From positions 1 to 20,582 of the IMG/VR virus record IMGVR_UViG_3300033143_003939: a stretch of DNA of 20,582 bases. One strand, 5' to 3'. The translations under genes were made by a program, and so were the position numbers. The stretch comes from a virus. Shown one piece after another: positions 1 to 19,720 of the stretch (position 1 is its first letter; each line of letters starts with the position of its first letter). A model generated the notes under the pieces. The model saw only the letters and a program-made list of their open reading frames with translations. It was not told where the DNA came from and searched no databases.

Positions 1-23
1 ATCAACGTGTAGTTTAACTAACC

Positions 24-43
24 GAGACCCCTTCGGGGGTCTC
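24..43 (+). terminator. Perfect 8-bp hairpin with TTCG tetraloop between late genes
   Basis: GAGACCCC (24-31) and GGGGTCTC (36-43) are perfect inverted repeats around a TTCG loop, a very stable RNA hairpin. It sits between the end of an unseen upstream gene (stop at 10-12 or 15-17, depending on frame) and the gene at 59. There is no immediate T-run (a short one lies at 54-58), so it may be a partial terminator or an mRNA-stabilising or processing hairpin. Confidence 0.6.
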
Positions 44-58
44 ATCTTAGGAGTTTTT

Positions 59-523
59 ATGAAACCTAAAGATATGCGAGTGAAGCTTAAGGAAGCGGGG
101 ATTACGTGCCCTGTGTCGAATAAAGACGTGATTGATCGATATAACGCGAATTTTGGTGAAAAGAAAACGATTGAAGATGTTTCTAAATTTGAAGACATTC
201 AGGTTGAAGCGATGAATCTTGATACCGGAGACATCATTCCCACTATTGTCGAACTTGTTTCAGATAATATTTATACCTATGTAGGGTCGGGCTGCACGCC
301 ACCTGAAAGAACGAACTTTATGGGTTTGCAGGAATTTGTCCGTGGCGAGCCTGTAGAAGTTATTGATCCATTTGTCAGGAAGAAGATCGAAAACCACCCT
401 TGCTTTATAAAAGGCAGCCCTAGTTTGACAAAAATGAGAGAAAATGACGAAAGAGAACTTGAAGGTGAAATGAAGCGCAAAAGAGCCGCAGAAGCACAAC
501 TCGCTGCGCGTAAAACAGGGTAA
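59..523 (+). CDS. Hypothetical head-region protein
   Basis: A 154-residue soluble protein that I cannot assign to a family. Residues 1-33 (K-D-M-R-V-K-L-K-E-A-G-I, then S-N-K-D-V-I-D-R-Y) resemble a short two-helix SAP/HeH-like motif. The middle is mixed, with two prolines at a likely turn (P-P-E-R-T-N-F), and the C-terminus (about 125-154) is highly charged and probably a coiled coil. The start is set by TAGGAG five bases before the ATG at 59. The stop overlaps the next start (TAATG). Its position just before the head-tail adaptor, where phages of this type carry capsid or head-completion genes, suggests a virion-associated role; that is inferred from context only. Confidence 0.8.
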   Translation: MKPKDMRVKLKEAGITCPVSNKDVIDRYNANFGEKKTIEDVSKFEDIQVEAMNLDTGDIIPTIVELVSDNIYTYVGSGCTPPERTNFMGLQEFVRGEPVEVIDPFVRKKIENHPCFIKGSPSLTKMRENDERELEGEMKRKRAAEAQLAARKTG

Positions 524-870
524 TGGCAACCAAAACCGAAGCTAAGAACCGTGCGTTAGAGTTATTGACGGTTAAAACGTTAGGCCAGAGTGCGCAATCT
601 CAGGACTTCGATCACATTGAAGACATCTACCTTGAAGTCTACACCGACTTGAAAACAGAAGGTATTGCTACGTGGGCGGTGGCAGGGACGATCCCCGATG
701 ATGTCATGCCTCACTTAGCCGCGTTAATGGCGTTTAACTCTGTTCACGTTAATGGACTTTCCTCTGAACGATATAACCGAATCTCAGCTAAAGCCTCGAT
801 TGCTAAAACTGAGATAAGAACCATCGTCACCCCTGATTACGAATCTTTAGAAGAGCCGGAAGACTTTTAA
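523..870 (+). CDS. Head-tail adaptor / tail accessory factor, P22 gp4-like
   Basis: A 115-residue, mostly helical protein. The N-terminal pattern (R-A-L-E-L-L-x-V-x-x-L-G-Q, then D-x-I-x-x-I-Y-x-E-V-Y-x-D-L-x-x-E-G) followed by W-A-V-A-G-T-I-P-D-D and an alanine-rich helix is the pattern I associate with the P22 gp4 / head-completion adaptor family, which binds below the portal and closes the DNA-filled head. P22 gp4 is longer (166 residues), so this is a short version. Neighbours agree: the gp10-like gene follows immediately, as in P22. Both junctions are one-base TAATG overlaps, pointing to translational coupling. Assigned by motif and context, not by alignment. Confidence 0.7.
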   Translation: MATKTEAKNRALELLTVKTLGQSAQSQDFDHIEDIYLEVYTDLKTEGIATWAVAGTIPDDVMPHLAALMAFNSVHVNGLSSERYNRISAKASIAKTEIRTIVTPDYESLEEPEDF

Positions 871-3041
871 TGCCCACGATTGATATTAATATTACCGGCG
901 GAACGTATAAAAGCCGGTCACGGTCTTTGGCGGCTCAAAAAACCCAAAATATGTATCCTGAGATCGTGGATACGGATGCAAAGAAAAGCCCGTTTGTTTT
1001 ACATAATTGGCCGGGTTTGACGTTGTTTGGCTCGGTTCCCGGTTTTGACCGTGGAATGTTTATTCATCAAGGAATTCTATACAAGGTTTCCGGCGATACG
1101 CTTTACTCTATTGATCAAAATGGTGTTCATTCTGTGATAGGGGTGATAACAGGGTCGGGACGATGTGTGTTTGAAGGGATTGGGGGTAATTTAATAATAG
1201 TTTCTGGCGGGAGGGTTTGGGTTTATAACCCTAATCCAGATTTAACAAATACAATATATTCTACTAAGAAATTTAATATCCTTGCTCAAGGGGACAATAA
1301 TACGCAGGATTTAACTTTCGGGGCTGACGGGTTAAATGTATACGTTGTAGGCTTGCTGCTTGACAAAGTCCATCAGTATACTTTGTCGGTCGCATGGGAT
1401 GTGTCAACAGCAGGATATTCTGGTAATTCGCTTGATGTCAGCTCAGAAGATATAACCCCAACAGGGGTCTATATTAGTAATGACGGGTCTAAAATTTATA
1501 TTAGTGGGAACACGAATGACTCTGTTTTCCAGTATGATTTTACCGAGAATTATGATCTCTCCACAGCAAGTTACGCAAGCAAATCAAAAGACATTTCCGC
1601 AGAAGAATTGCAGATAACAGGCGTAACTTTTTCTCCCAGCGGCCTTAAGATGTATATAGTGGGAACAGCAACAGGCGCTAGGGCTGTTTTCCAGTACGAT
1701 CTAACTATTGGCTGGGATGTTTCTACAGCAGCATACGCAAGCAAAACGCTCGATGTATCTTCTGAGGATATTGCCCCCAACGGACTAGCCTTTAATTTAA
1801 GTGGAACTGTGCTATATGTTGTTGGCGACACTAGCGATACTGTTTATCAGTACAACTTAACGTCTGCCTACGATCTTTCAACTGCGTCTTATGCTAGCAA
1901 ATCCCTTGATGTAAGCTCCGAGGACACTAATCTTAGAGGTCTTGCTGCAAATCAAAATATGAGCAATATTTATGTGCTCGGCACTTTTAATAATACTATC
2001 TATCAATACAGCTCTACGAAAGAAATCACCGATTCTGATCTAGAGTCTCCTAATGCAGTCGCACATCTTAATAATCAAGCCATATATGATGGTGACAATG
2101 CAAGATGGTGTACGTCTGATGTAGGGGATGCGTCATCAATAACAGCGGCTAACTATGCTACTGCCGAGGCTTCTCCTGATAATTTATCAAGACCGTATGT
2201 TTTCGATCAAATCCTTTACTTGTTTGGCGAAAAAACTACTGAAACATGGTACAACTCTGGCGTAGGAAATCCTCCTTTTGACAGAATAGAAGGCGGGATA
2301 TTTACTATTGGCCTTGCGGCGATTCATTCAACAGCCCACAACGATAATAATCTTTACTTTTTAGGCGACGATAATAAAGTCTACCGCCTTCCTACGAAAC
2401 AAAGCGTATCGGATATAGCCTTAACCCATGCCATCGAAGGCTACTCTGCCGTCGCAGATGCCATTGGTTTATGTTATTCATTTGAAAACCAGAACTTCTA
2501 TCAACTAACCTTCCCTTCTGAGAATAAAACATGGGTCTATTCAGAGCCAACTAATCAATGGATTGAACTTCTTTCCGGTGATGGACGGTATTTTGGTAAC
2601 TCTCATGCTTATGCTTATCGTAAGAACTTAATCGCAGATTACCGTAATGGTAATATTTACGAACTCGATATAAATTCATTCGACGACAACGGCACAACAG
2701 TTAAACGGATAAGAGAAACTGGCCCCATTCATGGTGGATTAGTAGGCGCTCCCGGTAAACGGGTAGAAATGAACCGCTTTGAACTCATTATGGAAGTTGG
2801 GGTAGGGGTAAGTGCAGGGCAAGGTATCGAGCCAGTTGTGATGTTGTCTTACTCTGACGATGGCGGAAAGACGTTTTCAACTGAGCGATGGGGAAATATT
2901 GGTCATTTAGGCGATTATTTAAGAAAAGTCGAATGGCACGGATTGGGAAGTTTTGAGAGTCGGATTATGCGAATTTCTATGTCAGACCCCGTCCAACTGT
3001 CCATTCACTCTGCCGCTGCGGATATAGAGGTTGGGATATGA
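870..3041 (+). CDS. Tail hub / packaged-DNA stabilisation protein, P22 gp10-like, with propeller insertion
   Basis: A 723-residue structural protein. The N-terminus (G-G-T-Y-K-S-R-S-R-S-L-A-A-Q-K-T-Q-N-M-Y-P-E, then P-F-V-L-H-N-W-P-G-L-T-L-F-G) and the segment after residue 385 (I-T-D-S-D, Y-A-T-A-E-A-S-P-D, L-F-G-E-K-T-T-E-T-W-Y-N-S-G) match the pattern of gp10-type proteins, which plug the portal channel and form the tail hub. P22 gp10 has 472 residues; the extra length here is almost entirely a repeat block at residues about 140-385. Removing it leaves about 480 residues, the normal size. It overlaps its upstream neighbour by one base and the next gene by four (ATGA). Confidence 0.85.
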   Translation: MPTIDINITGGTYKSRSRSLAAQKTQNMYPEIVDTDAKKSPFVLHNWPGLTLFGSVPGFDRGMFIHQGILYKVSGDTLYSIDQNGVHSVIGVITGSGRCVFEGIGGNLIIVSGGRVWVYNPNPDLTNTIYSTKKFNILAQGDNNTQDLTFGADGLNVYVVGLLLDKVHQYTLSVAWDVSTAGYSGNSLDVSSEDITPTGVYISNDGSKIYISGNTNDSVFQYDFTENYDLSTASYASKSKDISAEELQITGVTFSPSGLKMYIVGTATGARAVFQYDLTIGWDVSTAAYASKTLDVSSEDIAPNGLAFNLSGTVLYVVGDTSDTVYQYNLTSAYDLSTASYASKSLDVSSEDTNLRGLAANQNMSNIYVLGTFNNTIYQYSSTKEITDSDLESPNAVAHLNNQAIYDGDNARWCTSDVGDASSITAANYATAEASPDNLSRPYVFDQILYLFGEKTTETWYNSGVGNPPFDRIEGGIFTIGLAAIHSTAHNDNNLYFLGDDNKVYRLPTKQSVSDIALTHAIEGYSAVADAIGLCYSFENQNFYQLTFPSENKTWVYSEPTNQWIELLSGDGRYFGNSHAYAYRKNLIADYRNGNIYELDINSFDDNGTTVKRIRETGPIHGGLVGAPGKRVEMNRFELIMEVGVGVSAGQGIEPVVMLSYSDDGGKTFSTERWGNIGHLGDYLRKVEWHGLGSFESRIMRISMSDPVQLSIHSAAADIEVGI
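1311..2012 (+). repeat. Four to five tandem propeller-like protein repeats inside the tail hub gene
   Basis: Residues 148-381 of the hub protein hold units of about 52-53 residues with the shared pattern G-x-x-F-S-x-D-G-x-K-x-Y-x-x-G-x-x-x-D, then V-x-Q-Y, W/Y-D-x-S-T-A-x-Y and S-K-S-L-D-V-S-S-E-D. Units begin near residues 148, 198, 250 and 303, with a partial fifth near 355. The pattern is that of blades of a beta-propeller. Codons differ between units, so the repeats are old at the DNA level. Confidence 0.8.
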
Positions 3042-3568
3042 GCGTTCAACCCCCCAGTCCACCCATAAAAATACCCAAAGCATTTACAGAAGATCCAGAA
3101 GTTTTTAAGTTTATACAACAATTGGTAAATTCTAATTACCAGAAATGGGCTGAAAGACGCGAAGGTAGCTTTACCCCTGAGATATATGACGATTCTTTCA
3201 GCGGTAGCGAATCCCAGACGTATTCAGTGCAGACAGGGTATTATTATCGAATTGGTGATTTGGTTGTATTTTTCGGAGAAGTCACTATGACCTCTTTGGG
3301 GACATTAACAACATCACAGTCTGCTCAGCTTGGAAATCTACCCTTTCCCGTAAAAAACCTAACCAGTATACGGGGAGGGCTGACGATACATAGAGCGTCC
3401 AGCTTAAGTATAACCGCAGGATACAGTATATCCGGGTTCATTCAGCCCGGACAAAGTTATTCAACTTTAAGGTTATGGGATTCAACTGGCGGACAAACCG
3501 ATTTAACATTGGCGGAATTAACCGCTGCTGGCAGTATTGCTTTTGCAGGAAGTTATCTTGCCGAGTAA
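3038..3568 (+). CDS. Tail needle/fibre-like protein
   Basis: A 176-residue protein. Residues 1-40 are proline-rich and then helical (P-P-S-P-P-I-K-I-P-K, F-K-F-I-Q-Q-L-V-N-S-N-Y-Q-K-W-A-E), a likely attachment segment. Residues about 43-176 are beta-rich with the signature G-S-F-T-P-x-I, Y-S-V-Q-T-G-Y-Y-Y-R-I-G-D-L-V-V-F-F and L-P-F-P-V, common in C-terminal beta-sandwich domains of phage tail fibres. In P22 the gene after gp10 is the tail needle gp26, so a needle or tip role is reasonable but inferred. GAGG lies seven bases before the ATG, and the start overlaps the hub gene by four bases. Confidence 0.7.
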   Translation: MSVQPPSPPIKIPKAFTEDPEVFKFIQQLVNSNYQKWAERREGSFTPEIYDDSFSGSESQTYSVQTGYYYRIGDLVVFFGEVTMTSLGTLTTSQSAQLGNLPFPVKNLTSIRGGLTIHRASSLSITAGYSISGFIQPGQSYSTLRLWDSTGGQTDLTLAELTAAGSIAFAGSYLAE

Positions 3569-3580
3569 AGGGGAAATATA

Positions 3581-4192
3581 ATGGGAATTGCTAATCTTGC
3601 TATAGGTACAGTTTTTGGTGGGGATCCACTCGACTTGTCAGGTGAAGCCGCCGCGGGTGCGACACGAGAAGCGGCTAATATTCAATTAAGATCGACTCGT
3701 GAAGGCATCGCTGAGCAAAAGCGTGCCAGAGTGCAGGCCAGAGAAGATTTACAACCTTTTCGTCAAGCAGGCGAACAGAGTCTTTCGGGGTTATCCGATC
3801 TAGTCACCTCACCAGAAGCACAGACTGATTTCATTCAAGATAACGAGTTTCTAGATTTTATCACCGGAGAAGCTGCGACTCGGCTGGGTCAGAATCCGCT
3901 GACTTCGGGTGGTTCAGATCAATCCGCACGAGCTAGAGAAAACAGTTTGATGCTCTTAGCGCCGGACTTAATCAATCAAAGCTTCTCTCAGAGATTTAAC
4001 TTGGCTGGATTAGGGGCTAACGCCGCCGCACAGCAGGCTACACAGACGTTAGGAGTGGGGGCGAACATTGCCGACTTATTTACACAAGGCGCTAACGCGC
4101 AGGCTGCGGGAACGGTAGGGGCGCAAAACGCCCAAACGAACGCACAAAATCAAGCGGCAGCCGGTCTGTCGTCTTACTACGCGAATAGGTGA
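3581..4192 (+). CDS. DNA ejection (transfer) protein, P22 gp7-like, copy 1
   Basis: A 203-residue alanine- and glutamine-rich protein with the layout of the DNA-transfer family: an N-terminal helix (A-A-A-G-A-T-R-E-A-A), R-E-D-L-Q-P-F-R-Q-A-G-E-Q-S-L, a central segment (D-F-I-Q-D-N-E-F-L), then F-N-L-A-G-L-G-A-N-A-A-A-Q-Q-A-T and a C-terminal T-Q-G-A-N-A-Q-A-A-G-T-V-G-A-Q-N-A-Q. Such proteins are packed in the capsid and ejected with the DNA to build a conduit across the cell envelope. It is a paralogue of the next gene, four bases downstream, but stops where that one continues into an S74 domain. AGGGG lies ahead of the ATG. Confidence 0.8.
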   Translation: MGIANLAIGTVFGGDPLDLSGEAAAGATREAANIQLRSTREGIAEQKRARVQAREDLQPFRQAGEQSLSGLSDLVTSPEAQTDFIQDNEFLDFITGEAATRLGQNPLTSGGSDQSARARENSLMLLAPDLINQSFSQRFNLAGLGANAAAQQATQTLGVGANIADLFTQGANAQAAGTVGAQNAQTNAQNQAAAGLSSYYANR

Positions 4193-4195
4193 TAT

Positions 4196-5014
4196 ATGGG
4201 TGTTCTTGATGATTTAAGTAGCGGCCTTGAAGGTTTAGCAACCACGGGGACGGATGCAGCGATAGAGGCAGCGAGAATTCAAGCCCAAGGCGCGACTGAG
4301 GGTATTGACGAGTTAAGAGAAGCCAGAGAACAGGCAAGGGCTGATTTAGACCCTTTTAGACAGCAAGGCGCTGGCCTCGCGCCGGGATTGGCTAATTTAT
4401 TAACCGATAAGGGTGCGCAAAGAGATTTTCTTGCTCAAAACCCTTTCTTCAAACCGTTAGCAGAAAAAGCTCAACAGGATATTTTTGCCAGTCAAGCCGC
4501 AAGAGGGAAAGTAGGGTCAGGTGAAACTGGGAATATTTTACAGAATAAGCTCTTGCAAATCGGCTCTGAGCTGTTAAATAAAAACATCACCCAACGGCAG
4601 AACCTTGTTGCCTTAGGCTCAAATGCTGCATCAGGGCAAGCCACAGGGGGTCTTAGTACGGCCTCTGGCATAACAGACCTACTAACAGGAAGTGCTAACG
4701 CCCAAGCCGCCGGGATTGTAGGCGCTCAGAACGCCCAGACGCAACGCAATCAAACCATTGCGACCACTGCATTAAGTATTTTTGCCTCAGACGAAAGAGT
4801 GAAGGAAGATATTGAACAAATCGGTACTCATAAATCTGGGTTACCGATTTACACGTTTAAGTATAAACCCGATCTCGCCTTTAAATACGGCTGGGATACT
4901 GAGCACCAAATAGGCTTCATGGCACAAGAGGTTCAAGAAATGTTCCCTGAATATGTTTATGACATTGACGGTATTTTACATATAGATTACGGGAGCTTAT
5001 TACATGCCCATTGA
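4196..5014 (+). CDS. DNA ejection protein copy 2 with C-terminal S74 (intramolecular chaperone) domain
   Basis: A 272-residue protein. Residues 1-180 parallel the previous gene (L-D-P-F-R-Q-Q-G-A-G, F-L-A-Q-N-P-F-F-K-P-L, A-N-A-Q-A-A-G-I-V-G-A-Q-N-A-Q). Residues 197-270 form a short peptidase S74-type domain: A-S-D-E-R-V-K-E-D-I-E-Q-I-G, H-Q-I-G-F-M-A-Q-E-V-Q-E-M-F-P-E, H-I-D-Y-G-S-L-L. Ser198 and Lys203 sit five apart, the spacing of the Ser-Lys dyad used for self-cleavage in phage tailspike chaperone domains, so cleavage before Ser198 is possible. The domain is shorter than the endosialidase type (over 100 residues). The gene end overlaps the next start by 11 bases. Confidence 0.8.
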   Translation: MGVLDDLSSGLEGLATTGTDAAIEAARIQAQGATEGIDELREAREQARADLDPFRQQGAGLAPGLANLLTDKGAQRDFLAQNPFFKPLAEKAQQDIFASQAARGKVGSGETGNILQNKLLQIGSELLNKNITQRQNLVALGSNAASGQATGGLSTASGITDLLTGSANAQAAGIVGAQNAQTQRNQTIATTALSIFASDERVKEDIEQIGTHKSGLPIYTFKYKPDLAFKYGWDTEHQIGFMAQEVQEMFPEYVYDIDGILHIDYGSLLHAH

Positions 5015-6083
5015 TCCATCCATCCCCCTTCAAGTCCAGCCCAATCGACTCGGAGAGATATTTGCCCAATTCCAACAACAATCACGATCTAATCGCCTCG
5101 CTGACCAGCAAAACACTCGCCAAAATCGACTTATTCAGTTAAAAGAAGAACAAGCTGAAAATTTAGACATTGAGAAATCACGGAAGTCTTCACTAAAATC
5201 CACCGCGACCTTCTTAGAGACTACTGCGATTCCCATGCTTAAGGATGAAAATATTCAAGGCGTGGACGATGCTATAACTAAGCAGATTGAGGCGAATGCT
5301 GGCGACCCTGTTTTAGTGGATGGATTGGAAAAGATGCAACAAGCCCTTCGACAAAATCCTACCGGATTTGCCCGGACTGCCGATCAAACTGTGTCTCAAG
5401 CACGTTTTGAGAAGTTGATCCCATATCCGGGAGGGATAGATCCAAATAAGAAGACAGGAAGAGGTGCTTTTTTTACTCCTAGAGATGTAACTATAGACGA
5501 CGAAACAGTCCCCTTTACTTTTAACAATAGAACGGGGGAATGGGAAAGAGCAGATATTGAAGGTGCAACTTCACCTAAATTCGATCCAAGCGTTCAAAGA
5601 AGTATTGCCAAAAGCAAGGCTGGTGGGAAAGTCGAAGGAAAAGAAAGAACAACAGCGAAAATTGATCTACCAAAAGTGAGAAGTGATAGAAAATATCTTA
5701 CTAGTTTAGTGAAAAAAGCAGTTAAACACCCCGGAATGTCGGGTGTTGTTGGTGCTCCGGGGATAGGAAAAGCCAAACAATTTATTGGCGGGACAAAGGA
5801 AGCTAATTTTAAAGCTCTGTACGATCAAATTGCAGGCAAACAATTCTCACAAGCTTATGAAACGCTTAAGGGTGGCGGCCAAATCACTGAAATTGAGGGC
5901 GAGAAAGCGACTAACGCATTATCAAGAATGCGTACCTCAGTAAGCGAAGCAGAATTTAGGCTTGCCGCAGATGAGTTTATTTCAGAAATAAACAGATTAA
6001 CAGCTTTAGCTGAACAAAGAGCGTCGGGCGAAGACCCAAATAGAGCTTTGTTTGATGCGGCAGATAAAATTATAGGCCCATAA
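5004..6083 (+). CDS. Putative internal virion / DNA ejection protein
   Basis: A 359-residue protein. Residues about 15-65 are strongly charged and glutamine-rich (F-A-Q-F-Q-Q-Q-S-R-S-N-R-L-A, K-E-E-Q-A-E-N-L), a probable coiled coil. Residues about 225-355 form a compact helical domain (L-V-K-K-A-V-K-H-P-G-M-S-G-V-V-G, F-K-A-L-Y-D-Q-I-A-G-K-Q-F, L-K-G-G-G-Q-I-T-E-I-E-G-E-K-A-T) of a type recurrent in ejection-module proteins of P22-like phages. It lies between two ejection-type genes in one packed block, overlapping the upstream gene by 11 bases and the next by one. The exact P22 counterpart (gp20 or gp16) cannot be decided from sequence alone. Confidence 0.7.
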   Translation: MPIDPSIPLQVQPNRLGEIFAQFQQQSRSNRLADQQNTRQNRLIQLKEEQAENLDIEKSRKSSLKSTATFLETTAIPMLKDENIQGVDDAITKQIEANAGDPVLVDGLEKMQQALRQNPTGFARTADQTVSQARFEKLIPYPGGIDPNKKTGRGAFFTPRDVTIDDETVPFTFNNRTGEWERADIEGATSPKFDPSVQRSIAKSKAGGKVEGKERTTAKIDLPKVRSDRKYLTSLVKKAVKHPGMSGVVGAPGIGKAKQFIGGTKEANFKALYDQIAGKQFSQAYETLKGGGQITEIEGEKATNALSRMRTSVSEAEFRLAADEFISEINRLTALAEQRASGEDPNRALFDAADKIIGP

Positions 6084-7984
6084 TGGCAGCAGAAAAATAC
6101 GCACAATGGCTTGTTGAAAACGAAGACAAGAAGGGAACGCCTGAATTTGATACCGTGACTCAGGCTTATAAGTCTTCTCGATCTTCTATTGATCCAGCCT
6201 ATAACAGCCTTGAAACTACCCATAGAGAAGTTAAAGCTGAAACAGTCGGTCAAGAAGCTACTTTTACCGAAAGCCTTGGTAGAGGCATGATGGACGTTTA
6301 TGAAGGTGGCGCACAGCTTGGACTGAATATCGCATTAAAGATGAAAGGTATGGAGAAAATCCTTAGTAAAAAGTCGGGAAGTGATAAAATAGGCAAGGCG
6401 GCAACAGACGCTATTATGATGGTGACTGGTTTTGGTGGGATGTCTCAACTTCCAGACGGCTCCATAAGAAGAATGACAGATAAGCTGAATAAAAAAATAG
6501 AGTCCGACTTGTCAATTTTTGATAAAAATAACCCTGACTTTTCATGGGGAAGATTAGCTGGCGGCGTAGCGACTCCGTTAACCTTAATTCCCGGAGGGAA
6601 AGTAGCAACCCTGTCGGGGAAAGCCGCTACGGGAGCGGTAATAGGCGGCACTGCCGCAGCGTTTCAGCCTGTGAAAGACTCAGGAGCCTTCTTTGAGACT
6701 AAGGGCTTACAGGTGGGCGCTGGAATGACTTTAGGGGCAGCATTACCAGTAGCAACTAAAATATTATCCGGCGTTAAGAATTGGCTTGATGAACTTACCA
6801 AGCCATTGTATAAAAAAGGCATTTACCGTGATGTGGCAAAGTTTTTACGTGAGAATATATCTGAGAACAGTGATAAAATTAGAACTGCGTTACAAAGGTC
6901 TATATCAAACAAAGACGGCAAAACCGTCGGGCAGGTTATTTCCGAAGTAAATAAAGGTTCTTCTGATGACTTTGGAGGGCTATTAGTCAGATTAGAAAAA
7001 GACCTGTCTAGGGAGTCGGACTCCTTAAAAGCGGTATACGCACTTCAAACAGCGTCAAGAAGGGCGGTGCTTGATGGGATTGCGGGGACAGATGACGACT
7101 TAGCAAGAGCAATAAGTAATCGTACAAAGAACGCCGCTGAAAACTATGGTAAATCCTTTGAGGTTCAAATCACCGGCGACTCGGCATTGACGAATTTAGG
7201 TAAAACTAAATATTTTAAAACTGCAATGAACACAGCTAATGATTTAGCCGAAGCTAACAATGTAAACCCAAAAGAAAACCTGACGGAGTTTTTGCATTAC
7301 GTGAAGATCGGCTTAGACAAACAACTGCAAAGAACAGGTGACGATGCTTTAGCTAATACTGAACGAAAAGCCGTTAGTAATATTAAAGACAGACTGACCG
7401 GCTGGATTGGAAACAAAAACCCGCTTTATGAGAAAGCAAGAAGCACCTTTCAGGCAGATTCAACCCCAATCAATAAAATGGAAGTTGGCCGGGAGCTAAG
7501 AAATGCGCTGGTTAATTCCCTAGAAAATGAATCCCCGTCAACATTTAGCACAGCAGTTAGGGAGGCAGCGAGAACAATTAAACGTTCAACCGGGTTCTCT
7601 CGGTTTAAAAAACTTGAAGACATTATTCCTGATGAGGCTGCATCAGTGCGGAAAATTGCTAAAGAATTGACGATAGAAGCAAAAGGCAAGAAAATGGCAG
7701 CAGCCTCGAAAGGTATTCTCCCTGATATTGGGGCGGAAGTTGAGTTAAGGTTGCCTCATATTTTATCTCGTCCAGTAGTTATTGCTAACCATGCTCTTAA
7801 GGCTCTTGGCCAAGACAAAACTCCTGAGTATAAAAATCTTTTGTTTGATTTGGTTAAAAACCCTGAAAAATTCATCAAAGCGTATAAGCAGCCCGAATCA
7901 AATCAGCAAGCAAAAATGGCAATGGACATTATTCGGAAAATAAACACTATTGCTGCCTCTCAAACAGTAGCAAAAGAGAACTAA
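6083..7984 (+). CDS. Large DNA ejection / internal virion protein (P22 gp16-like position)
   Basis: A 633-residue protein, close in size to P22 gp16 (609). The N-terminus carries a short motif frequent in phage ejection proteins (W-L-V-E-N-E-D-K-K-G-T-P-E-F-D-T-V). Two glycine/alanine-rich hydrophobic stretches at about 156-193 (G-R-L-A-G-G-V-A-T-P-L-T-L-I-P-G-G, G-A-V-I-G-G-T-A-A-A) and 208-230 (V-G-A-G-M-T-L-G-A-A-L-P-V-A) could insert into or cross a membrane, as expected for a conduit protein. The remainder is long, charged and mostly helical. It is the last of four ejection genes and begins in a one-base TAATG overlap. Role assigned by position and composition. Confidence 0.7.
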   Translation: MAAEKYAQWLVENEDKKGTPEFDTVTQAYKSSRSSIDPAYNSLETTHREVKAETVGQEATFTESLGRGMMDVYEGGAQLGLNIALKMKGMEKILSKKSGSDKIGKAATDAIMMVTGFGGMSQLPDGSIRRMTDKLNKKIESDLSIFDKNNPDFSWGRLAGGVATPLTLIPGGKVATLSGKAATGAVIGGTAAAFQPVKDSGAFFETKGLQVGAGMTLGAALPVATKILSGVKNWLDELTKPLYKKGIYRDVAKFLRENISENSDKIRTALQRSISNKDGKTVGQVISEVNKGSSDDFGGLLVRLEKDLSRESDSLKAVYALQTASRRAVLDGIAGTDDDLARAISNRTKNAAENYGKSFEVQITGDSALTNLGKTKYFKTAMNTANDLAEANNVNPKENLTEFLHYVKIGLDKQLQRTGDDALANTERKAVSNIKDRLTGWIGNKNPLYEKARSTFQADSTPINKMEVGRELRNALVNSLENESPSTFSTAVREAARTIKRSTGFSRFKKLEDIIPDEAASVRKIAKELTIEAKGKKMAAASKGILPDIGAEVELRLPHILSRPVVIANHALKALGQDKTPEYKNLLFDLVKNPEKFIKAYKQPESNQQAKMAMDIIRKINTIAASQTVAKEN

Positions 7985-7985
7985 T

Positions 7986-8762
7986 ATGTCATACGCCCCT
8001 ATATCTAAATTTCTACCCCAGTGGGAAGATCCAGCTACCGGCCTACCCTATTCAGGAGCCGTACTAAAAGCTTACAAAGACGGAACTTCAACTGTTCTAT
8101 CAATGGCAACCGATTACACTGGAGGCACAACGGCCACAAGCATGGCGTTGAACTCTAGCGGCTACCCTGAAGTCTCTGGGAACGAAGTTATCCCGCATGT
8201 CAATGAAGACTACAAACTGGCTTTATATGCCAATCAAGCAGCCGCCGATGCCAATTCAGGTGCGTTATGGGAAATAGATACCCTCCCTGTTGGCTCTTTC
8301 TTCCAAACCATGACCAACCACGTAAAATCAGAAGTCTTCTTTATTGAGGATGATGTAGGCGCAGGGAGCACGGCGTTTGATATTGATGCGGTGATTGGGG
8401 CTGCATGGGAGTCTGTCGGCCCCACCGGATCAGGGGCGACAAATATCTGGACAGCAATGGATAACATCCCTGATGGTGCGACGTTTGTTGAAATAATGAT
8501 TTACAACTACTGTACTGACACAGCGAATGGTCAGTTAGCTCAGTATGTTTATGGCCGCGTGACTGGATCTTCAACGTCTATCGGCGTACAAGCAATGAAA
8601 TCCGCTGCCTACTGTCCGTTAAGCACGGATGACGACTCAGAAGCATTAGATTTAGTCAGCCGGAAAATCCCAATTGATTCAAGTAAACGCTTTGATTTAT
8701 ATCTTGTCACCGACGGAACATCAAGAACAGTAGACTGTTACTTGGTAGGAGCCGGAATTTAA
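7986..8762 (+). CDS. Short tailspike / receptor-binding protein with head-binding domain
   Basis: A 258-residue protein. Residues about 1-100 follow the tailspike head-binding pattern: K-F-L-P-Q-W-E-D-P-A-T-G-L-P-Y-S-G-A-V-L, K-A-Y-K-D-G-T-S-T, L-N-S-S-G-Y-P-E-V-S, V-I-P-H-V-N-E-D-Y-K-L-A-L-Y. This domain attaches spikes to the tail hub. The rest (about 110-258) is a beta-rich domain of about 140 residues that I do not recognise; it has no long beta-helix or recognisable glycosidase core, so this spike is far shorter than P22 gp9 (666 residues). It is probably a receptor-binding or adaptor spike. It starts one base after the ejection gene ends. Confidence 0.75.
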   Translation: MSYAPISKFLPQWEDPATGLPYSGAVLKAYKDGTSTVLSMATDYTGGTTATSMALNSSGYPEVSGNEVIPHVNEDYKLALYANQAAADANSGALWEIDTLPVGSFFQTMTNHVKSEVFFIEDDVGAGSTAFDIDAVIGAAWESVGPTGSGATNIWTAMDNIPDGATFVEIMIYNYCTDTANGQLAQYVYGRVTGSSTSIGVQAMKSAAYCPLSTDDDSEALDLVSRKIPIDSSKRFDLYLVTDGTSRTVDCYLVGAGI

Positions 8763-8779
8763 CCTATAAAGGACGCTGT

Positions 8780-9052
8780 ATGTCTGACGAACGACTAAGA
8801 AAGGTAGAAATGACGCTCGCTTCATTGGAGACAAAAGTTGATCTCACCAACGACTTTCTTAAAGGAAACCTCTCTGAGCTTAAAACCATCACTAAGAGCA
8901 ACGTAGACTTGATCTCAGACGTTCACGGAAGAACCGCTACCCTAGAGGACTCTCGTGAGAAGAAGGCTAAATGGACGTTTATAGGCGCTACAGCGATAGC
9001 AGGGTTATGGGTTAAAATTGCATGGGATTATATCCAGCATGGAAATCCTTAA
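8780..9052 (+). CDS. Coiled-coil protein with C-terminal membrane anchor (XhlA-like shape), lysis cassette
   Basis: A 90-residue protein. Residues 1-60 show heptad-like hydrophobics in a charged helix (R-L-R-K-V-E-M-T-L-A-S-L-E-T-K-V), followed by a basic stretch (E-K-K-A-K) and one hydrophobic segment at about 66-84 (T-F-I-G-A-T-A-I-A-G-L-W-V-K-I-A-W). This shape, N-terminal coiled coil plus C-terminal membrane anchor, is that of the XhlA-type accessory proteins found beside holins. AAGGA lies six bases before the ATG. It is the first of three membrane genes after the tailspike, the usual place for lysis genes. Function inferred from topology and context. Confidence 0.65.
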   Translation: MSDERLRKVEMTLASLETKVDLTNDFLKGNLSELKTITKSNVDLISDVHGRTATLEDSREKKAKWTFIGATAIAGLWVKIAWDYIQHGNP

Positions 9053-9212
9053 ATGGCTATCAGACCTCAGAAACGTCATCACGCTATTAATTGCTATTAT
9101 TGGCGGACTCTCAACCCTATCCCAGTACACAGACAAGAAAGAATCTCAGAAAATGAGTGTTAATCAAATAGCGAATATTGCTAACTTCTACAACAAAATG
9201 TGTGAGAAATGA
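9039..9212 (+). CDS. Small single-pass membrane protein, lysis cassette
   Basis: A 57-residue protein beginning M-E-I-L-K-W-L-S-D-L-R-N-V, with one hydrophobic segment at about 13-27 (V-I-T-L-L-I-A-I-I-G-G-L) and a polar lysine/asparagine-rich tail. ATG 9039 is chosen over the upstream TTG at 9018 because it puts the short charged N-terminus directly before the membrane segment. It overlaps the previous gene by 14 bases and has no clear Shine-Dalgarno site, so it is probably translated by coupling. An accessory holin or spanin-like role is possible, but no signal peptide or lipobox is present and no family is recognised. Confidence 0.55.
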   Translation: MEILKWLSDLRNVITLLIAIIGGLSTLSQYTDKKESQKMSVNQIANIANFYNKMCEK

Positions 9213-9213
9213 A

Positions 9214-9411
9214 ATGATTAAAGTAAAAAGCGAAAGCGGAAAGACATCAAAAACAGTACTCTGGTCAACCTTGCTTGGTGTTCTTGGTATTGTTGAGCTA
9301 AACATGAGCCTATTACAGGCTACATTAGGTGATTACTATGGTTTCACTTTCATAGGAGTGGGGATCGTAACCTACATCCTTCGTACATTAACCTCTACCC
9401 CATTAAGATGA
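9214..9411 (+). CDS. Probable holin (two membrane segments)
   Basis: A 65-residue protein: basic N-terminus (M-I-K-V-K-S-E-S-G-K-T-S-K-T), first membrane segment at about 16-31 (L-W-S-T-L-L-G-V-L-G-I-V-E-L), a short loop with L-L-Q-A-T-L-G-D-Y-Y, and a second segment at about 42-57 (F-T-F-I-G-V-G-I-V-T-Y-I-L-R), ending T-L-T-S-T-P-L-R. This hairpin layout with L-R-x-x-T-x-x-P-L near the end is typical of small phage holins, which open the inner membrane at lysis. ATG 9214, one base after the previous stop, is preferred over TTG 9178. It is the last late gene and meets the leftward operon tail to tail. Confidence 0.7.
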   Translation: MIKVKSESGKTSKTVLWSTLLGVLGIVELNMSLLQATLGDYYGFTFIGVGIVTYILRTLTSTPLR

Positions 9412-9536
9412 TCGACCTCACGGTAAACCAATTCAAACTCCTCTAAAAAGAAATCAAACTCACCATCAATCAAAAGGTCTGAATAATCAAATTCACCCTT
9501 CCTATCTGCAATATAAGCCTGTGTTAATATATCCAT
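9372..9536 (-). CDS. Small acidic protein, 54 residues, possibly from a leaderless transcript
   Basis: The reverse strand reads M-D-I-L-T-Q-A-Y-I-A-D-R-K-G-E-F-D-Y, then D-L-L-I-D-G-E-F-D-F-F-L-E-E-F-E-L, ending V-R-R-M. It is strongly acidic; small acidic phage proteins are sometimes DNA mimics or inhibitors, but nothing here proves that. AGAGG directly abuts the ATG, too close to act as a Shine-Dalgarno site, whereas a sigma70-like promoter (9543-9571) places the transcript start at the A of this ATG. It overlaps the end of the holin gene by 40 bases in convergent orientation. Without the promoter it would be a marginal call. Confidence 0.5.
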   Translation of the reverse strand: MDILTQAYIADRKGEFDYSDLLIDGEFDFFLEEFELVYREVDHLNGVEVNVRRM

Positions 9537-9542
9537 CCTCTA

Positions 9543-9571
9543 ATATTAGGATATGGTTATGTATTAATCAA
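9543..9571 (-). promoter_or_regulatory. Sigma70-like promoter for the 54-residue acidic protein
   Basis: On the minus strand, -35 TTGATT (9566-9571), 17-base spacer, -10 TAATAT (9543-9548). Seven bases past the -10 is the A of the ATG at 9536. The -35 abuts the parS-like palindrome at 9572-9587, which could act as an operator. Confidence 0.5.
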
Positions 9572-9587
9572 GGTTTTACGTGAAACA
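9572..9587 (+). promoter_or_regulatory. parS-like 16-bp palindrome
   Basis: The site reads GGTTTTACGTGAAACA. Against the bacterial chromosomal parS consensus TGTTTCACGTGAAACA it matches 14 of 16 positions, with the central ACGT intact. It lies directly upstream of the -35 of the leftward promoter at 9543-9571. It could be a ParB site, an operator for another protein, or chance. Confidence 0.4.
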
Positions 9588-9603
9588 TACCTACAAGGGT
9601 TTG

Positions 9604-10215: not shown

Positions 10216-10482
10216 TTAATATAATGCTGCTTTTCCATTCCAGTTTCGCTTAGGTTTTGATCTCGGCATCTTTGAATCTTTTTTAACATTACAATTCTTG
10301 CAGGCGATTCTTAAGTTTTCTTTTTTACCGCTGCCGCCTTTTGATTTAGGCATATAGTGATCAACTGTGGCGTTATCTTTTGTTAAATTTTTACCGCAAA
10401 GATAACATGGAGCGGTGTAGACACCCTTTACTTCAAGGTCGCTATAAACCTTCTTTTTCCACCGTGATACCGAACCACTCAT
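10216..10482 (-). CDS. Small HNH endonuclease
   Basis: An 88-residue HNH nuclease: C26-x-x-C29 and C61-x-x-C64 form a zinc site, and the catalytic core is T-V-D-H-Y-M-P-K-S-K-G-G (D41, H42) with N56 (E-N-L-R-I-A-C) and N65 following. Flanks are lysine-rich, suiting DNA binding. HNH proteins of this size occur as free-standing homing nucleases or as packaging or anti-host nicking enzymes in phages. AGGAG lies six bases before ATG 10482 (ATG 10485 is adjacent). The start directly follows the stop of the upstream gene, so translation is probably coupled. Catalytic residues all appear present. Confidence 0.85.
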   Translation of the reverse strand: MSGSVSRWKKKVYSDLEVKGVYTAPCYLCGKNLTKDNATVDHYMPKSKGGSGKKENLRIACKNCNVKKDSKMPRSKPKRNWNGKAALY

Positions 10483-10485
10483 CAT

Positions 10486-10763: not shown

Positions 10764-11150
10764 TCAATCAGACTCCTTGCGGTGTTTTCCGTTAACCCAG
10801 TCTTCAATGTACTGCTCACGCTGTTCTTTATCCAGTTTAAGAGCAGCTATAGCGTTGTCTCGTTCCTGCTCAGTGGTGGTGAGTTTATCCTCTAAATCAA
10901 TAATCTCAATTCTTAGTCCGAATAGTTCTGTGGTAACTGTGCCCTTGCCATTACATACGCAGTCTTTTCCAGAAGGCAATGGTTTACCTAAACACACACT
11001 ACACTTATTAGCCGACTCCTTCTCACCCTCCAATCGCTGTACTGCGAGGGCGAGTTGTTGGAACTTGCCATCTTCCGCTAGCGTGTAAAGCCGTTCTAAT
11101 TTTGCGCCTAATACTTCATCGGCAAGAGCCATGATTTCTATGGTATCCAT
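10764..11150 (-). CDS. DnaJ-type zinc-finger and coiled-coil phage protein
   Basis: A 128-residue protein. A zinc knuckle at about 49-68 has the spacing of the DnaJ cysteine-rich repeats (C-S-V-C-L-G-K then C-V-C-N-G-K-G). It lies between an N-terminal helix (M-D-T-I-E-I-M-A-L-A-D-E-V-L-G) and a long C-terminal coiled coil (L-E-D-K-L-T-T-T-E-Q-E-R-D-N-A). There is no J domain, so it is not a co-chaperone of the usual kind; a nucleic-acid or protein-binding role is a guess. ATG 11150 is chosen because GGAG lies seven bases upstream. Its start is inside the end of the HNH-AP2 gene (35-base overlap), which is unusual for this operon. Confidence 0.7.
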   Translation of the reverse strand: MDTIEIMALADEVLGAKLERLYTLAEDGKFQQLALAVQRLEGEKESANKCSVCLGKPLPSGKDCVCNGKGTVTTELFGLRIEIIDLEDKLTTTEQERDNAIAALKLDKEQREQYIEDWVNGKHRKESD

Positions 11151-11649
11151 TTTCTTTCTCCGCTTGTTTTCTGGCGCATACCGCGCTCCGGTAATTATTA
11201 AAAGTACCAAGATGGGTGTGCTTTCCTTTCGCTCGTATGTACGCCATCCATGAGCCTGAATTGCTTTTGCAGACTCCAGTGCATCCGCTTTTGTTTCTGC
11301 GGCTTAGTTTCAAATTTTTCCCATTTTCAGAATGAGGGACATCACGTAAATTTATTATTCTATTATCATCACATACGCCGTTAATGTGGTCTATTTCATC
11401 TTTAGGCCATTCGCCGTACATATACATCCAAATTAATCTATGGCATTGATATTCTTTGCCTCGTATCTTTGTAAGCCTGTAGCCTCCCACTGTTATCCAC
11501 CCAATCTCTTTTCCATTTAATTGGCTTTTATGGTATGGCGACTTAATCCAAATAAAGGTGCCGGTATCAGGATCGTAGAATGTATTTTCTTTTAACCATT
11601 CTTGGGTTATATCAGCCAATTCAAGGTCTTCTTTAAGGTCTTTGTTCAT
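11116..11649 (-). CDS. HNH-AP2 homing-type endonuclease
   Basis: A 177-residue protein with the layout of phage HNH homing nucleases: a short beta N-terminal part (T-G-T-F-I-W), an HNH core at about 70-104 (C-H-R-L-I-W, E-I-D-H-I-N-G-V-C-D-D-N-R-I-I-N-L-R, with H70, D87, H88, N96 and N100) and a C-terminal AP2-type DNA-binding domain at about 118-168 (N-K-S-G-C-T-G-V, W-M-A-Y-I-R, H-L-G-T-F). Such genes usually insert as selfish elements. It overlaps the start of the zinc-finger gene by 35 bases and the next gene upstream by four. AGGA lies seven bases before the ATG. The core looks intact. Confidence 0.9.
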   Translation of the reverse strand: MNKDLKEDLELADITQEWLKENTFYDPDTGTFIWIKSPYHKSQLNGKEIGWITVGGYRLTKIRGKEYQCHRLIWMYMYGEWPKDEIDHINGVCDDNRIINLRDVPHSENGKNLKLSRRNKSGCTGVCKSNSGSWMAYIRAKGKHTHLGTFNNYRSAVCARKQAEKENGYHRNHGSCR

Positions 11650-12856: not shown

Positions 12857-12879
12857 TAAGTTGTATAGATGCCGCGCTA

Positions 12880-13107
12880 TTAGCTCGGTGCTTTCTGCGA
12901 CCACATAAGAGGATCTTCTTCCCCGTCAGCCCATGCTTGCAGAATATCTAACATACTCATTCTGGCCGGGAATGTTTTATGATGCCATCCTTGGACTCCT
13001 AACATTCCGTCATTGCTTAGATTGTCAATTAAAACATATACCTCTGTAAGTTCTGGATCTCGAACGTTTATACGAAGTTCTTGGTATGCTATTTCTGTGT
13101 TTGCCAC
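12880..13107 (-). CDS. Hypothetical protein, GTG start
   Basis: A 75-residue acidic protein: M-A-N-T-E-I-A-Y-Q-E-L-R-I-N-V-R-D-P-E-L, V-Y-V-L-I-D-N-L, a glycine turn (M-L-G-V-Q-G-W-H-H-K-T-F-P), then a helix (S-M-L-D-I-L-Q-A-W-A-D-G-E-E-D-P). It looks like a small beta-beta-alpha fold. The GTG start has GGAGG eight bases upstream, a strong site, and no ATG fits. Just upstream lies the highly structured element at 13129-13297, so this gene is the natural target if that element is a cis-acting leader. No family recognised. Confidence 0.65.
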   Translation of the reverse strand: MANTEIAYQELRINVRDPELTEVYVLIDNLSNDGMLGVQGWHHKTFPARMSMLDILQAWADGEEDPLMWSQKAPS

Positions 13108-13128
13108 TTTCTAACCCTCCTACTAAGG

Positions 13129-13297
13129 TTTATAGATGCTGTGTACTGGCCTTTCGGAACGATGACTGGCTCAGCACCACCTGTTACGTCCTATCGCCAT
13201 TCTCTAACTGCTGCTCGGCTCTCTTAGCTCTGTTGGTTCAGAGCTTCAACCGAGGCAAATCCAGCAGTTAGTATCACGCAGTACACAGCTCTATAAA
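13129..13297 (-). ncRNA. Candidate structured RNA (nested inverted repeats)
   Basis: Four nested or stacked perfect pairings can be read directly. P1: 13129-13148 with 13279-13297, 19 base pairs with one bulged base (13137). P2: CTAACTGCTG (13204-13213) with CAGCAGTTAG (13262-13271). P3: CTCGG (13214-13218) with CCGAG (13250-13254). P4: AGCTCTG (13226-13232) with CAGAGCT (13239-13245), six-base loop. A further weak arm pairs 13160-13166 with 13188-13196. There is no good gene in the stretch. The minus strand is preferred because all neighbours run that way; P1 includes the stop codon of the 82-residue gene. It could instead be a DNA-level element such as an origin. Family unknown. Confidence 0.6.
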
Positions 13298-13539
13298 TCA
13301 TTCACATATTCACTCAGTAATGAGCAGTACATCTTCCTTGAGTCAGGGGCTTTGTCCTTCAATAGACTTATTAGTACCATTCTCTCATCCCCTGAGAGCC
13401 TCCAGAACAGCCCCTTCATCTCCTGAGCGTTGTCATCAGTGTCTTGGTCGATCAACCTCTTAAGACGTTCTGCGAGCCTCTCAAGCTTAGTTAAATTAAC
13501 CGGGACAGTGTTTACCTGCCCGGCTATGTATTTGTCCAT
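13291..13539 (-). CDS. Hypothetical helical protein
   Basis: An 82-residue protein: M-D-K-Y-I-A-G-Q-V-N-T-V-P-V-N-L, then amphipathic helices (L-E-R-L-A-E-R-L-K-R-L-I-D-Q-D, M-K-G-L-F-W-R-L-S-G-D-E-R-M-V-L-I-S-L-L). The L-S-G-D-E-R-x-V-L-I-x-L-L pattern suggests a small helical bundle. It starts in a one-base overlap (TGATG) with the stop of the SSB-like gene, implying coupled expression with it and perhaps a role in the same replication or recombination step. Its stop codon falls within one arm of the structured element at 13129-13297. No family recognised. Confidence 0.65.
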   Translation of the reverse strand: MDKYIAGQVNTVPVNLTKLERLAERLKRLIDQDTDDNAQEMKGLFWRLSGDERMVLISLLKDKAPDSRKMYCSLLSEYVNDL

Positions 13540-14183
13540 CAGAACGGTGGCAAATCGTCGTTAAAGTCCTCGCAACCTTCACCCGGATTCTCGGTGTTGG
13601 CGTAGCCTGTGTTCACCCCCATTGTTGCGTGTTGAGAGGTGGTTTCTTTCGGCTCCGCCTGCTCCTTTGCGCCCAAGACTTTTGCCTTCATCTTGTCGGT
13701 TAGCTTCTCAACTTCCTTTGGGTCGAGGCTATCTTGGTCGATTAAGATAATCTTCCCGACAGGTAAAGGGGCTGTCATCCCATCAGGGACAGGGCCAATA
13801 GTCTGAATGTTGGTAAACTTCCCATCTTCAGACCGAACAATATTCATAAAGGCAGGCATTCTCAACAAGGTTGAGGGATCGAAATTATCCGCCTCGTCCT
13901 GAGAAGTGAACTTCCGGCCTAGCCAATTCTCAACAAACCCACATAACATGGAATTTTGATACATTGAGTAATTGTAATTAGCAAACACTAGGAAGGGTTC
14001 GCCAGCAAAATCACCTGTTGTCATCTTCTTTTCAGACTCCAGTGCGATCATGATTTTACGTTCATCTTTCTGTTTCTTTTCATTAAAGTGCGTACCAACA
14101 TCTATTACGCGTGTACAGACACCTAGCGAGTACCCTGTGGGTAACATTTCAAAGGCTGCGCCTTTATTTTGTGGTGCTTTCAT
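13539..14183 (-). CDS. Putative phage single-stranded DNA-binding protein
   Basis: A 214-residue protein with a beta-rich core (G-Y-S-L-G-V-C-T-R-V-I-D-V-G-T, R-K-I-M-I-A-L-E-S, P-F-L-V-F-A-N-Y-N-Y-S-M, W-L-G-R-K-F), a lysine-rich middle, a flexible glutamine/asparagine-rich linker from about 175, and an acidic end with an aromatic tip (E-D-F-N-D-D-L-P-P-F). The acidic tail ending in P-F is the hallmark by which SSBs recruit partner enzymes. The core matches a phage protein family I recognise by pattern but that lacks a firm name. AAGGAG lies six bases before the ATG and a promoter lies at 14199-14227. Confidence 0.65.
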   Translation of the reverse strand: MKAPQNKGAAFEMLPTGYSLGVCTRVIDVGTHFNEKKQKDERKIMIALESEKKMTTGDFAGEPFLVFANYNYSMYQNSMLCGFVENWLGRKFTSQDEADNFDPSTLLRMPAFMNIVRSEDGKFTNIQTIGPVPDGMTAPLPVGKIILIDQDSLDPKEVEKLTDKMKAKVLGAKEQAEPKETTSQHATMGVNTGYANTENPGEGCEDFNDDLPPF

Positions 14184-18917: not shown

Positions 18918-19012
18918 ACCTCTACAAGGCTCTATTGAGTGATAACTGTAGCTTCTACTTCTCCTTAGCTGGGGATAGTGGAGCTATGCCAAGACATACA
19001 GGATATTGAGTG

Positions 19013-19720
19013 ATGTACCAATACACCTACAATAGTCGTAAACCTAGACATAAAGTTCATATTATTAACTCTAAGACTGGTAGAACATTTTGCAGTCTTG
19101 AGAACAGCTATTCATTTAAAAACTTAAATGTTATTGGAGAAAATCCTGCTGATAGGCCTATTTGTTCTATATGCCAGAATCAATTATTGAATCCCAACAA
19201 GAAGAACAAAAAACACTCAAAATCAGCGATTAGAAAACAAAAGCAAAAAGAGCAGCGAGAAGTAAATCAAGCGGCAAGAGAAGGGCTAATCAAATATTTT
19301 GGTCTTTACCGTTATGCAACCAATATTGCTATTTGCTTGTGTATCCATAAGAAAACCGATCTGGATTTGCCTGATACTGATAAAGAAACCAAATCTATGA
19401 TGAGCAATTATTGGCGGCATGTTCGAGGTAAGACTCCGCATAAAAACTATAATTACATGAGTAGTAAAGATTTTTATTCGTCAAAAAAATGGCGGGAAGT
19501 AAGGTATATCGTACTACAGCAATCAAATGGTACATGTGAGTTATGCGGAGCGAGGGCGAGTGACGGTGTCCAATTACACGTAGACCATATCAAGCCGAGA
19601 TCAAAGTTCCCGGAGTTACAATTTAATTTGGATAACCTTCAGGTTCTCTGTGATGACTGTAATCTCGGAAAATCTAACTATGACGACACAGATTGGCGCG
19701 ACCATTGGGAAACGTTATAA
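19013..19720 (+). CDS. HNH endonuclease with N-terminal zinc-ribbon-like domain
   Basis: A 235-residue protein. Residues 1-58 resemble a small zinc ribbon (H-I-I-N-S-K-T-G-R-T-F-C, then C51-S-I-C54). A lysine-rich linker (about 62-84) and a helical middle follow. The C-terminal HNH core at about 154-225 has C175-E-L-C178, H-V-D-H-I-K-P-R-S (D191, H192), N208, C213-D-D-C216 and N217, all intact. Such proteins are free-standing homing or host-targeting nucleases. ATG 19013 has only a weak AGGA nine bases upstream. It is preceded by a roughly 400-base region without a clear gene. Confidence 0.85.
   Translation: MYQYTYNSRKPRHKVHIINSKTGRTFCSLENSYSFKNLNVIGENPADRPICSICQNQLLNPNKKNKKHSKSAIRKQKQKEQREVNQAAREGLIKYFGLYRYATNIAICLCIHKKTDLDLPDTDKETKSMMSNYWRHVRGKTPHKNYNYMSSKDFYSSKKWREVRYIVLQQSNGTCELCGARASDGVQLHVDHIKPRSKFPELQFNLDNLQVLCDDCNLGKSNYDDTDWRDHWETL

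Follow-up and report, generated by a model that had tools for sequence, protein, structure and literature searches.

A strongly folding non-coding element between two leftward phage genes, possibly an intercistronic processing or stability hairpin

The stretch from 13129 to 13297 of the window (the whole of a complete 20,582-base IMG/VR record) is made of real inverted repeats and forms a strongly folding element without a current match. The data support the view that this structured element is unlike any Rfam family. Taken alone, the element most likely has the ordinary role of a processing or stability hairpin. We tentatively propose, by analogy with bacteriophage T7, that it would act in cis, as an RNase III-type intercistronic hairpin of a polycistronic leftward message. 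Structured non-coding elements of uncultured phages are poorly catalogued, and this clear strong-fold candidate, located outside the current RNA libraries, could be targeted precisely in tests of expression or of nuclease action.

A block of leftward genes extends from 16,478 to 9,604. Within this block, the element fills the 183-nt gap that separates the stop codon of an 82-aa ORF (13291-13539, minus strand) from the GTG start codon, at 13107, of a 75-aa gene (12880-13107, minus strand). The latter belongs to a conserved family, the members of which share the motif GVQGWHHKTFP, and its Shine-Dalgarno sequence AGGAGG is found at 13116-13121, 7 nt past the end of the element. An earlier note, made from the sequence alone, had indeed placed the element between two leftward genes and just before this site. 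Relatives of the 82-aa ORF were looked for and none was found; the proteins flanking the element have no Pfam match. Further upstream, a 214-aa gene (13539-14183, minus strand) encodes a protein with an SSB-like acidic C-terminus (DFNDDLPPF) and no Pfam or PHROG match. Judging from this C-terminal sequence, it may be the counterpart of the SSB gene found in relatives. Among the gaps of more than 150 nt in the leftward block, in two others small ORFs of 49 and 59 aa are plausible, whereas that of the element contains only a 25-aa frame and is the sole clearly non-coding one. No protein frame of the minus strand is open across the element, in keeping with the previous remark that it holds no convincing gene, and a coding frame through the stretch is ruled out.

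Considered as minus-strand RNA, the element is closed by a 19-bp stem, P1. The 5′ strand of P1 (13279-13297; inverted repeats I2 and I11) includes the TAG stop codon of the 82-aa ORF (13291-13293) and shows predicted pair probabilities of 0.70-1.00, mostly close to 1. Its 3′ strand (13129-13148) has one bulged base at 13137, which separates 8 bp (13129-13136 with 13290-13297) from 11 bp (13138-13148 with 13279-13289). Inside, the 10-bp stem P2 pairs 13262-13271 with 13204-13213 (inverted repeat I5). Stem P3 (13248-13254 with 13214-13220), 7 bp long including one G-U, is predicted to stack directly on P2 by its 3′ strand, a one-sided bulge of 7 nt (13255-13261) being left between the two stems on the other side. 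The arm ends with the hairpin P4 (13226-13245; inverted repeat I20), where 7 bp (13226-13232 with 13239-13245) close the 6-nt loop AACCAA. The closing stem with its single bulge, the perfect 10-bp stem and the terminal hairpin are thus found where they had first been described. The stacked stem is also present but had been given a length of 5 bp instead of 7. In contrast, the possible third arm is not retained: the 55-nt 3′ junction concerned (13149-13203) has no significant structure and folds no better than chance (z of -0.35 on the minus strand and +0.17 on the plus strand). Short direct repeats, D2 and D3 (14/16 and 13/16), relate the 3′ end of P1 (13124-13139) and P4 (13218-13233) to positions 12857-12889, just past the 75-aa gene; they may be due to chance.

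The minus-strand RNA of the element has a folding energy of -71.9 kcal/mol (z -7.0), a value equalled by none of 500 dinucleotide shuffles, and the plus strand of the same interval reaches -63.9 kcal/mol (z -5.9, also with dinucleotide shuffles). Both strands being far beyond the shuffles, the idea that such nested pairings would hardly arise by chance is borne out. The inner arm by itself gives a z of -5.7, and a scan of the whole window has the element as its top fold outlier. With the same fold method, control stretches from T7 intergenic regions, several of them holding known RNase III sites, gave z values of -1.1 to -4.5. This strength of the fold argues for the processing hairpin, as do the better score of the mRNA-sense strand and the G-U of P3, which pairs in minus-strand RNA only. 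However, inclusion of the flanks (13110-13310) gives the advantage to the plus strand (z -6.4, versus -5.4 for the minus strand), and the preference for the minus strand is weak because its sign shifts with the chosen boundaries. Also to be set against the processing hairpin, P1 to P4 are almost wholly Watson-Crick, with one G-U among 43 pairs; therefore, inverted repeats at the DNA level, possibly recent ones, fit nearly as well. Folded as DNA, both strands of the element are strongly structured (z -7.4 and -6.5).

Hence, a DNA-level or inserted inverted repeat is a serious rival to the processing hairpin, even if we consider it unlikely. In such a model, the element, possibly with the 82-aa ORF, would be a small insert, MITE-like or the scar of a cassette; P1 would correspond to terminal inverted repeats and the RNA fold would be a by-product. 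Bacterial MITEs and small inverted-repeat elements similarly have terminal inverted repeats and a short non-coding interior. The gene context is also of the kind expected from an insertion. In two closer relatives of the 75-aa gene (L009 and L010), an SSB-type gene ending in DDDIPF lies directly upstream of the 75-aa gene and, therefore, the 82-aa ORF and the element look inserted. From this gene order, they would appear to be a lineage-specific gain between the SSB-like and 75-aa genes. In L010, the gap upstream of the 75-aa gene is unstructured (z -1.1). On the other hand, the flanks at the two ends of P1 differ, without target-site duplication, and no second copy was found either in the window or in the phages, plasmids and E. 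coli genomes searched. Internal nested stems also set the element apart from MITEs, and four nested stems that differ from one another and have asymmetric loops would not be expected from a single inverted duplication.

For the processing hairpin, the following scheme may be envisaged. The leftward message would be transcribed in the order 214-aa gene, 82-aa ORF, element and 75-aa gene. In this RNA, the 183-nt gap would fold into a long, nearly perfect duplex, formed by the 19-bp base and a stacked arm of about 24 bp. The duplex would be either a substrate for host nucleases, with an RNase III-type cut, or a barrier blocking 3′-5′ exonucleases. What lies upstream in the message would thereby be separated from what lies downstream, and the stability and translation of the two parts would be set apart. 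Transcription through the element, nuclease action and the effect on expression are what we infer here. In favor of the processing hairpin, the element fits exactly into the space from a stop codon to the following Shine-Dalgarno sequence in a one-way gene block. The RNase III sites of T7 (R0.3-R1.3) are likewise duplex hairpins lying between the stop of one gene and the start of the next in a one-way phage message. The gap between T7 genes 1 and 1.1 measures 184 nt, as compared to 183 nt at the element, and the duplex of about 20 bp that characterizes T7-type sites in intercistronic regions is present. However, T7 sites occur several times per genome, are smaller and share a CTCAAGG core, whereas the element is bigger and more branched, has longer stems, lacks the core and is found in a single copy when the window is searched with covariance model R1. 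The likeness to the T7 sites is thus one of position and shape only. Another point against the processing hairpin is that no homologue was found and hence no covariation.

In silico, the Shine-Dalgarno sequence downstream has nearly the same predicted accessibility with and without the element. This counts against the processing hairpin and, the pairing of this sequence being so little changed, it speaks against simple translational switching. It also bears on a further model, rather improbable to us, in which the fold would bridge two translation events. The 82-aa ORF has its stop codon paired in P1, and the fold would bring this codon near the Shine-Dalgarno sequence that starts 7 nt past the stem; terminating ribosomes would then either reinitiate translation at the 75-aa gene or change the access by opening P1. 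However, the predicted pairing of the Shine-Dalgarno sequence is similar whether the element is intact, has its P1 opened by a ribosome or is absent, and in relatives the 75-aa gene manages without such an element. With covariance model R1, none was detected beside the other relatives of the 75-aa gene, nor beside a 64%-identical relative of the 214-aa gene (L007). A leader of the 75-aa gene family is ruled out, since the relatives have no such fold upstream. In L009, the 75-aa gene is followed by a stretch of about 350 nt in which no gene is obvious (4609-4964); it ends in a clear intrinsic terminator (approximately 4916-4950) and its overall fold is not beyond shuffles (z -0.93).

Known RNA classes were searched with Rfam 15. 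The whole window gave no match at the gathering threshold and the interval 12900-13500 none at E ≤ 10; with 13195-13275, the only match was mir-49 (E 4.7, 12 bits for a cut-off of 60). The earlier failure to assign the element to a known class agrees with the empty scan of 12900-13500. Phages, plasmids and E. coli genomes yielded only chance fragments in blastn searches up to E 10. Covariance model R1 found no homologue in the window, 53 loci and 18 whole records, a weak negative since the model was built from a single sequence, and the collections may lack near kin of the window. A loop-anchored pattern with variable P4 gave 29 matches, about the number estimated for chance, none of which extends beyond P4. 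The description of the element as an uncharacterised structured RNA therefore stands as regards the fold beyond shuffles, the absence of an Rfam family and that of a coding frame, but a conserved functional RNA is unsupported, no homologue having been found.

Three of these 29 matches are tRNA-Val D arms in antisense (L030, L034 and L053). On the plus strand, 13218-13247, TAGCTCTGTTGGTTCAGAGC, resembles a tRNA D arm, but has T in place of the conserved A14; once the tRNAs retrieved through the pattern are set aside, this likeness scores 16, within a background of up to 19, and is not significant in an unbiased test. ARAGORN detected no tRNA, and a tRNA-derived element is ruled out, the unbiased alignment test giving background scores only. 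As for a retron, the ORFs near the element, of 75 aa on its downstream side and of 82 and 214 aa on the other, are too short to encode a reverse transcriptase.

It may also be imagined that the element is released as a discrete small RNA of about 170 nt, a model to which we give slightly less credit than to the translational bridge. The fold is self-contained, about 170 nt long and bounded by a duplex, and DicF of the Qin prophage provides a precedent for a small RNA cut from a phage polycistronic mRNA. Both would be non-coding RNAs within such a transcript, as predicted for the element. However, the release and the targets of DicF are proven whereas a transcript of the element is putative, and the two have no sequence relation, as judged from the absence of an Rfam match. 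Neither a promoter-like site nor a terminator is present at the ends of the element, and no family match was found.

Beside the ordinary role, there is a small chance that the element represents an undescribed class of phage RNA. In that case, a small orphan protein and a branched RNA about 170 nt long would form a cassette between the SSB-like gene and the next one, and during infection this RNA would work either in trans or as a regulatory structure. Least probable in our opinion is a regulatory element that binds a protein or a ligand, for instance the SSB-like protein, which would exert feedback on the operon that encodes it. The one-sided 7-nt bulge and the sizeable single-stranded loops held in a stable frame would suit such a function, as would the gene order with an SSB-like gene. 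But no homologue was found in which conserved loops could be recognized, and the element follows the SSB-like gene instead of lying at its start. An origin of replication is not indicated: GC skew tracks gene direction, without an extremum at 13.1 kb, and the origin-like DNA structure once envisaged is not favored.

At the scale of the window, positions 1-9596 share 99.99% identity with a second IMG/VR record (3300033148_001824, L008), which stops at 9596, where gene direction turns; among the records compared, the window beyond these left 9.6 kb has no near copy. Three different HNH endonuclease genes are found in this 20-kb fragment, at 10216-10485, 11116-11649 and 19010-19720.
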